A stretch of 64,000 nt of DNA from Leptolyngbya sp. SIO1E4 (GTDB lineage: Bacteria > Cyanobacteriota > Cyanobacteriia > Phormidesmidales > Phormidesmidaceae). The notes below the pieces were generated by a model. It did not search any database and had not been told where the DNA came from. It saw nothing but the letters and a program-made list of their open reading frames with translations. Positions 605 through 62,835 of this stretch are shown one piece after another (positions within the stretch are counted from its first letter, which is position 1; each line of letters opens with the position of its first letter). Both the position numbers and the translations under genes were made by a program. Location: contig JAAHFU020000001.1 of assembly GCA_010672825.2 (NCBI GenBank), positions 930,001 through 994,000 of the forward strand. Direction: 5' to 3'.

Positions 605-795
605 TGTAGCCTTGTTCAGTTGGATCCAGCGTATCTGAGGCAAGACAGGGTCTATAGTCTTGTTCAGGTGAGTCCAGTACATCTGGGTCAAGGCAGGGTC
701 TAGGGTTTGGGGTTTAGGGTGTGCTTGATTAGCCTGCATACCGCAATAGAGTTTGGGATCTAGGGTATGTGGTATCGGCATGCAAACCGCTCTAT
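605..795 (+). repeat. Family A dispersed repeat, copy A1 (compound)
   Basis: This is a longer, partly duplicated copy. A first half-copy (CTTGTTCAGTTGGATCCAG...) runs to about 655. A second, fuller copy follows (CTTGTTCAGGTGAGTCCAGT..., CAGGGTCTAGGGTTTGGGG, GTGCTTGATTAGCCTGCATA, CCGC). A third partial end reaches CCGCTCTAT at about 795. The same core recurs at 28267, 39388, 49278, 49505, 54197 and 62668. It fills most of the gap between the DUF445 gene and the RecB-like nuclease gene; nothing coding is supported there. Confidence 0.75.
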
Positions 796-28266: not shown

Positions 28267-28358
28267 ATAGCCTTGTGCACTTGAGTCCAGGACATCTGGG
28301 TCAAGACAGGGGCTAGGGTTTGGGGCTAGGGTGTGCTTTATCCGAATGCACACCGCTA
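28267..28358 (+). repeat. Family A dispersed repeat, copy A2
   Basis: Runs from ATAGCCTTGTGCACTTGAG through GGTCAAGACAGGGGCTAGGG to GCACACCGCTAT. It separates the two paralogous lipoprotein genes. It is bounded by ATAG and CTAT, in line with the other copies. Confidence 0.8.
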
Positions 28359-39387: not shown

Positions 39388-39490
39388 TATCGCCTTGTTC
39401 AGTTGAGTCCAGTACATCTGGGTCAAGACAGGGTCTAGGGTTTAGGGTTTAGGGTCTAGGGTGTGCTTGATTAGCCTGCATACCGCGATA
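39388..39490 (+). repeat. Family A dispersed repeat, copy A4
   Basis: A complete copy: CGCCTTGTTCAGTTGAGTCC, AGTACATCTGGGTCAAGACA, then TAGGGTTTAGGGTTTAGGG heptamers, GTGTGCTTGATTAGCCTGCA and TACCGCGATAT. It sits between potD and potB inside the transporter cluster, opposite to their direction. Confidence 0.82.
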
Positions 39491-49277: not shown

Positions 49278-49374
49278 TATAGCGGTATGCAGGCTAATCA
49301 AGCACACCCTAGACCCCAAACCCTATACCCTGTCTTGACCCGGATGTACTGGACTCAACTGAACAAGGCTATAG
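49278..49374 (-). repeat. Family A dispersed repeat, copy A5
   Basis: Minus-oriented complete copy: ATAGCGGTATGCAGGC, TAATCAAGCACACCCTAGAC, CTGTCTTGACC, ATGTACTGGACTCAACTGAA, CAAGGCTATAG. Both outer ends carry TATA, fitting a TA-type target duplication. Confidence 0.82.
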
Positions 49375-49504: not shown

Positions 49505-49608
49505 GATCTAACGGTGTGCATTTGGATCAAGTACACCCTAGACCCCAAACCCTAGACCCTAGACCCTGCCTTCACCAAAATGTACTGGACTGAACTGAAT
49601 AGGGCTAT
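49505..49608 (-). repeat. Family A dispersed repeat, copy A6
   Basis: Minus-oriented: ACGGTGTGCATTTGGATCAA, GTACACCCTAGACCCCAAAC, CCTAGACCCTAGACCCTGCC, TTCACCAAAATGTACTGGAC, TGAACTGAATAGGGCTATAA. It shares the CACCAAAATGTAC and GATCAAGTACACC variants with copy A7, so A6 and A7 form a subfamily. Confidence 0.8.
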
Positions 49609-52471: not shown

Positions 52472-53950
52472 CTAGGGCGCATCTACAATCCGCAATGTCT
52501 GTAAAGTTGGATCGAGACTCCCAGTAATCACGCCCCCCAGCTTCTGAATCTGCTGGAGATAGGCCATCGCGGCTGGGGTAATAGTTTCCCCAGGCAGCAA
52601 CGTGGGAATCCCAGGCGGATAGGGGCAGAGGGTATCGGCGCTCATGTGACCAACGGCATCATCAGTGGGGACCGTGCGGCTGGGGGCAAAGAAGGCATCT
52701 CGGGGAGATAACGGGGGTTCGGAAAGCGGTGCGGTGCCCCCAGTTTCCCCCACAGAGATATCGGGCAGAGTGTTAGCGATCGCTGCGGCGTTGTCTTTCA
52801 GGCTGGCTAGGGCTGTGATTAAACGCTCTCCATCAGCTACGGTGTTGCCCAGGCTGATAATGAACGTGAGCTGACGTAGGGTGGGTAACTCTGCGGTTAC
52901 GCCTAAATGCTGATGCAGTAACTCGTCGGCAGCAAACCCAGTGATGCCTAAGGTCGACACATCCACAGTGAGCCGGGTCAGGTCGAGCTGAAAATCACCG
53001 GGCAGAGCCGTCACCTGCTCAGGGGTCAGGCTCTGGAGTGGGGCCAGGGAAATCAGCTGCGATCGCACCTGTTGAGCGATGCCTAAGGTATGCGCCATCA
53101 ACGCTGGCCCCGCCACCGCCATTTGTTGCCGGGCCGCATCTAGGGAGGCCAACAACAGATAATTAGGACTGGTGGACTGGGTCAGCTGCAGGGCTTGCCG
53201 CAGGCGATCGCGATCTACCCGCTGCCCCTGCACATGCAGCATAGAGGCTTGAGTGAGGGCAGAGAGCACCTTATGGGTAGACTGAATCACCAGGTCTGCG
53301 CCCCCTGAGATCGCCCCTGGGGGCAGCTGATCGTGAAACCCCAGGTGTGGGCCATGGGCTTCATCAACAATCACTACCCCCGATCGGGGGTGGACGCAGG
53401 CGCAGATAGCGGCGATGTCGGCACAGACCCCCTGATAACTGGGCGACACCACCACCACCGCCCGCAGGTCCGGATGTTGCGTAAAGGCAGCGGCCACCTG
53501 CTCAGGGGTGATGCCGTAGGCCAGATCCCACTGGGAATCGTAGATGGGTGACACAAACACCGGCCTCGCTCCCGACAAAATCAGCGCTGATAGCACGGAT
53601 CGATGGGCATTGCGGGGAATCAGAATTTTATCCCCCGGTGAGCACACCGCCAGCACTGCTGCCTCAATCCCACAGGTAGAGCCGTTGGCAAGAAAAAAGG
53701 TTTCATCAGCGCCAAAGGTAGCCGCAGCCAGCTGCTGGGCCTGTTGAATCGGCCCTTCCGGCGCAAATAAGTTATCGAGTTCTGGCAATTCTGGTAAATC
53801 TGCCCGCAACCCCTGCTCACCCAGCAGAGCCGCCAGGGGTTGCGATACCCCCTGCCCCTGCTTATGCCCTGGGGCATAAAACGCTGCATGATCTCGCTGG
53901 GCAGCGGCAGCTAAGGCGGACAATAGCGGGGTTGCGCTGGGGTCAGTCAT
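52472..53950 (-). CDS. Orn/Lys/Arg decarboxylase family PLP enzyme
   Basis: A 492-residue fold-type I PLP enzyme of the Orn/Lys/Arg decarboxylase major-domain family. FLANGSTCGIEAAVLAVCSPGDKILIPRNAHRSVLSALILSG, IVDEAHGPHLGFHD (195-208) and the PLP lysine in QSTHKVLSALTQ (K227) are clear. The C-terminal family domain follows (LCPYPPGIPTLLPGETITP). Cyanobacteria use such enzymes in making or breaking basic amino acids and polyamines; the exact substrate is uncertain. It is compact compared with the 700-residue inducible decarboxylases. A potABCD transporter lies about 10 kb away and could handle its products, an inference. Confidence 0.88.
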   Translation of the reverse strand: MTDPSATPLLSALAAAAQRDHAAFYAPGHKQGQGVSQPLAALLGEQGLRADLPELPELDNLFAPEGPIQQAQQLAAATFGADETFFLANGSTCGIEAAVLAVCSPGDKILIPRNAHRSVLSALILSGARPVFVSPIYDSQWDLAYGITPEQVAAAFTQHPDLRAVVVVSPSYQGVCADIAAICACVHPRSGVVIVDEAHGPHLGFHDQLPPGAISGGADLVIQSTHKVLSALTQASMLHVQGQRVDRDRLRQALQLTQSTSPNYLLLASLDAARQQMAVAGPALMAHTLGIAQQVRSQLISLAPLQSLTPEQVTALPGDFQLDLTRLTVDVSTLGITGFAADELLHQHLGVTAELPTLRQLTFIISLGNTVADGERLITALASLKDNAAAIANTLPDISVGETGGTAPLSEPPLSPRDAFFAPSRTVPTDDAVGHMSADTLCPYPPGIPTLLPGETITPAAMAYLQQIQKLGGVITGSLDPTLQTLRIVDAP

Positions 53951-54071
53951 ACCAATACCAAGTCTCTTGCAGGGAACTTCTCAGCAGACTTTCATTTTGC
54001 GCTTAGATCACTTCGCGAAGGCTAGGACAGAATTAAAGGACTCACAATCCCCTCTGTGACACTGCCATTAT

Positions 54072-54550
54072 GTTTGATCGAGGGTAAACAACCTTTACTT
54101 CCGTTACCCCTACGACACCTACTTGACGGATGAGAACATTATTTTTCCGGTGCGAAACCAGGCTGAGCGATCGCGTCATCCCAAGGCAGGCATCACCTAT
54201 AGCCCTATTCAGTTCAATCCAGTACATTTTGGTGAAGGCGGGGTCTAGGATTTGGGGTCTAGGGTGTACTTGATCCAAATGCATACCGCTCTATATCTGG
54301 GAGACTGACGCGGGGACTCGGTTTAGCCAATTTTCTGGAGACAGCCATCAGTTTGTTCCCCGCGATCTACAGGCAAGTGGCGAACAGCAGGTGACCTTTA
54401 ATAGCCGTCAAGTTCGCGCCTATTGGGATCCAGCTTTAGCCACTGTAGTGGTCACTGAGGTGGTCACTGAGATGGACGGCCAACCCCTTGCGAGTTCACC
54501 AGCTTTGCGTTTGTCTATCCGGTGTTTTTCTAAGCCAGTTAAATTTTTGC
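54072..54550 (+). pseudogene. decayed gene interrupted by a family A repeat
   Basis: Two stretches look like protein: 54078-54200 (VNNLYFRYPYDTYLTDENI..., ending HPKAGITY) and, in another frame, 54295-54552 (IWETDAGTRFSQFSGDSHQF ... ALRLSIRCFSKPVKFLP stop). Removing the 94 bp between the CTATA copies at 54197 and 54291 joins them in frame as ITY-IWETD. A stop and probable frameshift also break the front (TGA at 54075; MFDRG in another frame), so this is a remnant even without the insert. I do not recognise the protein. Confidence 0.55.
54197..54295 (+). repeat. Family A dispersed repeat, copy A7, inserted in a reading frame
   Basis: AGCCCTATTCAGTTCAATCC, AGTACATTTTGGTGAAGGCG, GGGTCTAGGATTTGGGGTCT, AGGGTGTACTTGATCCAAAT, GCATACCGCT, with CTATA at both ends (54197-54201, 54291-54295). 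It is the copy that best defines the boundaries of the element. Confidence 0.85.
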
Positions 54551-62525: not shown

Positions 62526-62835
62526 ATCTGTGCCTGTTTACAATCGTTAAACTTAAACTCTAATTTTCTCATTTTAAGGAACACTTCTGCTGAATCCCAG
62601 GAGAGATTCTTAGCAAATGGTCAACCTAACGCCTGTGCGAGCATAATTGCAGCATTGATAGCTTTGTTTAGCCTTGTTCAGTTGAGTTCAGGACGTCTGG
62701 GTCAAGACAGGGTCTAGGGTTTGGGGTTTGGGGTCTGGGGTTTGGGGTCTAGGGTTTGGGGTCTAGAGTGGACTTTATCCCAATGCACACCGCTCATCGA
62801 TAACTGGAACGTCTGAACAAAGCGATGACGAACGC
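62526..62835. other. intergenic region with family A repeat A8
   Basis: About 310 bp between psb28 and the CHAT gene. It is mostly family A copy A8; no gene is supported. Confidence 0.6.
62668..62793 (+). repeat. Family A dispersed repeat, copy A8 (expanded heptamers)
   Basis: TTAGCCTTGTTCAGTTGAGT, TCAGGACGTCTGGGTCAAGA, then an expanded GGGTTTGGGGTCTGGGG type tract (about 62705-62767), GACTTTATCCCAATGCACAC and CGCTCATCG. The heptamer tract is the longest in the window. Confidence 0.8.

Follow-up and report, generated by a model that had tools for sequence, protein, structure and literature searches.

The 92-bp repeat at 54200-54291 of the window (the whole 64,000-nucleotide stretch of Leptolyngbya sp. 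SIO1E4 DNA analysed here) belongs to family A, which is very probably an IS630/Tc1-type MITE (type I), moved by the transposase of a separate IS630 element, with one copy lodged in a DUF3179 gene. The family inserts as a unit with exact ends, duplicates a TA, is present in high copy number, and has ends similar to those of TA-flanked IS630 elements. IS630-type transposition thereby accounts for a family of several hundred repeats, for which exact boundaries and a target site are given, and which may be an example of MITEs outliving their mover, the likely source transposase copies in this genome being apparently dead. The features of the window are collected in Table 1.

Table 1. Family A, its relatives and the interrupted gene in the window
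Feature	Position	Strand	Basis
Family A element (92 bp), noncoding, with imperfect ~27-bp terminal inverted repeats	54200-54291	+	Copy alignment, inverted-repeat match
Left TA of target-site duplication	54198-54199	.	Copy alignment, empty sites
Right TA of target-site duplication	54292-54293	.	Copy alignment, empty sites
Left end of element	54200-54226	+	Consensus vs left (5') IS630 end of relative G022, 20/27
Right end of element	54265-54291	-	Consensus vs right (3') end of same-genome IS630, 22/27
Core, degenerate 7-bp units GGGTCTA GGATTTG GGGTCTA GGGTGTA	54241-54268	+	Sequence, copy comparison
DUF3179 pseudogene, upstream fragment, internal stop	54040-54096	+	Residues 144-162 of 343-aa homologue
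DUF3179 pseudogene, fragment left of insertion	54096-54200	+	Residues 234-268
DUF3179 pseudogene, fragment right of insertion	54292-54504	+	Residues 268-334, with 4-residue insertion
DUF3179 pseudogene, frameshifted 3' end (...SFAFVYPVFF)	54471-54530	+	Homologue comparison
Orn/Lys/Arg decarboxylase family gene, divergent neighbour	52475-53950	-	Also beside CS-180 DUF3179 gene
Further family A copy of 99 bp, longer by one 7-bp unit	49509-49607	-	Pattern, profile, copy alignment
Related-subfamily copy	28268-28358	+	Pattern, profile
Related-subfamily copy	49280-49371	-	Profile
Related-subfamily copy	655-746	+	Profile
Related-subfamily copy	39392-39486	+	Profile
Related subfamily, interrupted or longer copy	62669-62794	+	Two collinear matches

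Element boundaries and target-site duplication

The first-pass annotation had described the repeat as flanked by CTATA direct repeats and as carrying a short, TA-containing target duplication. The two CTATA copies are present when the window sequence is read directly, at 54197-54201 and 54291-54295, but aligning the copies, first 30 and then 73, gave the element as TAGCCC...CCGCTC (consensus termini TAGC...GCTA) and its target-site duplication as the 2-bp TA. In the left CTATA the second TA already belongs to the element, as its first two bases, and in the right CTATA the C is the element's final base (A in the consensus and in most copies) and the second TA is target sequence. On this alignment the 5-bp CTATA was dropped as the duplication, its extra letters being chance matches, while the TA within it stood, both among the 73 copies and at the empty sites described below.

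Among these 73 family A copies, TA flanks the left end in 62 and the right end in 63, and beyond it the flanks are not conserved, except for a mild T bias. Three copies without TA duplicate a dinucleotide of their own (TT at C2:985721, CA at C4:615839 and TG at C1:1899354), and the presence of the same non-TA dinucleotide on both sides indicates that the dinucleotide derives from the target. The terminal inverted repeats are imperfect, being 72% complementary over 29 nt, and the element, which is short (92 bp here, with length classes of 71-102 bp), carries no transposase gene.

The interrupted DUF3179 gene

Deleting the 94 bp between the CTATA copies joins ...KAGITY to IWETDAG... in one frame, as had been proposed, reading ...HPKAGITYIWETDAGTRF..., and the joined frame matches Pfam DUF3179 (PF11376; E 3e-8). 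The insertion point is ACC-TA-TATCTGG, where the element shifts the frame. The repeat thus does interrupt a reading frame, but the gene is not merely split by it: upstream of the insertion there is an in-frame stop at IMFDRG*, after which residues ~163-233 are missing, a 4-residue insertion (VVTE, from a repeated GTGGTCACTGAG) is seen relative to homologues, and a frameshift lies near the 3' end. The window's DUF3179 gene is a pseudogene with several lesions besides the MITE, and the element may have landed in a gene that was already dead.

Could the two halves of the frame reflect chance or a programmed frameshift, with the repeat an old part of the gene? The other lesions do make the pseudogene's frame unreliable. 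Chance is nevertheless excluded by the DUF3179 match of the joined frame and by the repeat patterns, which gave zero matches in shuffled sequence, and the homologues are without the repeat and continuous at the junction, which refutes an old part of the gene and leaves this account a negligible probability.

Empty sites

The empty-site check suggested at the outset was run, and the DUF3179 homologues proved uninterrupted at the junction. They are gapless through the junction in 9 of the 9 clearly spanning loci from the search of relatives (L032-L040), and a scan of named genomes gave 31 of 33 loci gapless over residues 33-46, with the gaps of the other two (L251 and L269) lying away from the junction and not at residues 38/39. 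At L032 the equivalent gene is an uninterrupted 343-aa frame. The closest homologue, from Oscillatoria sp. CS-180 (66% identity), reads ITYIWEAD, and in that genome an Orn/Lys/Arg decarboxylase homologue (69% over 362 aa) has the same divergent arrangement as in the window. With its DUF3179 gene uninterrupted and beside the same divergent neighbour, the CS-180 locus is an orthologous and syntenic empty site.

Empty sites within the genome were sought by joining the flanks of copies and then searching 2 Mb of the same genome. The copy at C4:382878 lies inside a second, unrelated repeat, which is empty as GGCGATAGGTAGCGC at C2:608770 and filled as GGCGATA, element, TAGGTAGCGC. For a related copy, C5:328677 is the filled site and C7:134930 the empty one, and a third, at C7:291143, is nested inside another family member. 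All three of these paralogous sites show exactly one extra TA, and together with the orthologous site they bear out the earlier proposal that family A is, or was, mobile.

Spread of an ordinary intergenic repeat, whether REP, ERIC-like or palindromic, by recombination or slippage, instead of by transposition, is a highly improbable reading of the same data. Copies within a convincing reading frame are few, and many of the genome's repeats lie close together, but the precise ends and their 2-bp duplication, the four empty sites and the existence of a matching IS all argue against it. Moreover, a single strand of the element is no more stably folded than its shuffles (z -0.36), unlike REP palindromes, and on this lack of stable single-strand folding a REP/REPIN palindrome was rejected.

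Other genes whose frame would be restored by excision were sought among 154 copies, giving 6 candidates, of which 4 had their frame restored and none was convincing. A related copy at C2:821096 (L142) sits at the end of a GAF-like protein frame, and its removal lengthens the open frame by 83 codons, possibly marking another gene interruption. The second dispersed repeat, within which a family A copy is inserted, forms a family of its own, ~110 bp long (ATACCAGTTCTCGTTTCTAAAGC...GGGGAGGTGCCGCAGGCGGTGGGG...TAGCGCTGATTTGGAGAATTGG), found in L169 (C4:382678-382999), at C2:608788, C5:329923 and C1:1527320, and at ~20 other places.

An IS630 element as the candidate mover

The genome has 21 DDE_3 matches. 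One IS630 element (L078, C1 at ~2.119-2.121 Mb) has TA flanks and the ends TAGCGGTGTGCA...TGCACACCGCTA, and shares 99.5% identity with another copy at C1:2004148. In the same-genome copy the C-terminal portion matches DDE_3 at 3.4e-32. In relatives G080, G022 and G032, IS630 elements of ~1.02-1.03 kb have both inverted ends and TA flanks. Their transposase frame is single and open in G080, where the protein matches NCBIfam transpos_IS630 (3e-56) and Pfam DDE_3 (2.8e-34), and is divided into two overlapping frames in G022 (L210) and G032 (L208). In L208 and L210 the overlapping frames surround a run of A, as if by a programmed frameshift.

The ends of family A were compared with those of these elements over 27 positions, against a background of other TATAGC sites that match at a mean of 10 and a maximum of 17. 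The right end of family A matches the right end of the same-genome IS630 at 22/27, its left end matches the left end of the G022 element at 20/27, and the right end of a sister subfamily matches G032 at 24/27. In the best matches of family A, left pairs with left and right with right: the MITE's left end is closest to that of an IS, and its right end to IS right ends. The left-end assignment is the weaker of the two, since within the same genome the family A left end matches the IS630 left end at 15/27 and the IS630 right end at 19/27. The direct parent is not in hand, given that the left ends of the element and the same-genome IS match at just 15/27, and nothing corresponding to the element's core was noticed in the IS.

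The suggestion that an IS630/Tc1-type transposase acted in trans is supported by the matching ends and TA flanks of IS630 elements in this genome and in relatives, and from the ends we infer that this IS630 clade supplied the transposase. Transposases of the IS630/Tc1-mariner group bind the ends of their element, cut it out and insert it at TA. Family A, which is just two ends and a short core, would have its ends (TAGCggTrTGCA...GyACA) recognised by the IS630-family transposase of a separate IS, which would excise the element and insert it at a TA, duplicating the TA (with cut-and-paste presumed from knowledge of the IS630/Tc1 family). One copy would in this way have entered the DUF3179 gene at ACC-TA-TATCTGG and shifted its frame.

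The mover may, though, have been another IS630 of the genome, such as a 951-bp element with TAGCAATCCG ends and two copies, or one since lost. Further IS630 elements with TATAGC ends are present, and the best-matching IS is damaged in both copies: an in-frame TGA lies within the N-terminal part of each, the transposase gene of L078 is broken at ~905-1400 by a fragment of ~500 bp containing the beginning of an IS982-family transposase, and the C1:2004148 copy is without its right end. Against this, the ends of the other IS630 elements examined in this genome match the element at 4-14/27, inside the background range, versus 20-24 for the preferred clade, and we consider a different or lost IS630 unlikely. 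For the preferred clade no intact transposase was found in the genome. Since both copies are damaged, the mover is probably dead here and the family probably no longer mobilised by this clade, although another transposase source may exist.

Copy number and distribution

Across the 8.2-Mb genome there are 74 matches to the left-end pattern and 96 to the right-end pattern, with none for the reversed control. Copy-number estimates are based on a sample of 2.04 Mb of non-redundant stretches around copies, in which a profile search found 231 copies; sampling away from the seeds gives an estimate of ~490 related copies genome-wide besides family A, roughly matched by the 425-507 candidates of a first-look DNA search. 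We therefore count ~74 family A copies and, with relatives, roughly 500 or more. The 54 family A copies compared include 42 identical pairs, which points to amplification not long ago.

A distant-mode MITE search of plasmids and a search of viral contigs with the exact right-half pattern each gave zero matches. In G006, a genome of another genus of the same family, related elements (L196, L202 and L205) share 76-82% identity across the core and right end. Core matches in G013, G034, G043 and G061 were rejected as element copies, being merely free-standing G-rich 7-bp repeats.

Relation to known elements

Family A is a new family of a known kind. Nezha, the MITE of Zhou et al. from 2008, is likewise from cyanobacteria and is reportedly active; it was compared with family A by description.

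Among described elements the closest is RUP (Repeat Unit of Pneumococcus) with IS630-Spn1 (PMC3049150). RUP is ~107 bp long, gene-free and present in high copy number, has ends like those of the same-species IS630-Spn1, lies inside broken genes, and has been hypothesised to move in trans (PMC3049150). Family A is similarly short, gene-free and of many copies, with IS630-like ends and a copy inside a broken gene. Unlike RUP, which is AT-rich and structured, it folds like shuffles, has a G-rich 7-bp core, and differs in sequence and host.

Cyanobacterial MITEs that break genes are already known (PMC3542288; review PMC10969869). In Anabaena sp. 90, 15 of the 147 MITEs (77-541 bp) break genes; these MITEs are described as type II with no matching IS in the genome (PMC3542288), whereas family A is type I with a matching IS630. 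BrickBuilt of Porphyromonas gingivalis is a MITE with an internal tandem repeat, which is a minisatellite (PMC4596501), whereas the units of family A are 7 bp and few.

The 7-bp core

Length variants of the element step by 7 bp, the size of the G-rich core unit, through 78, 85, 92 and 99 bp. A G-quadruplex pattern fits 126 of the 154 full-length copies, and within family A it fits 61 copies versus 40 expected under random substitutions, in a test that ignores shared ancestry. The consensus fits the motif; the window copy, without one of the G runs, does not. That the core is kept as a possible G-quadruplex, and could aid the element's spread or the regulation of neighbouring genes, is quite doubtful, and we treat the 7-bp length steps and the possible G-quadruplex core as minor leads.
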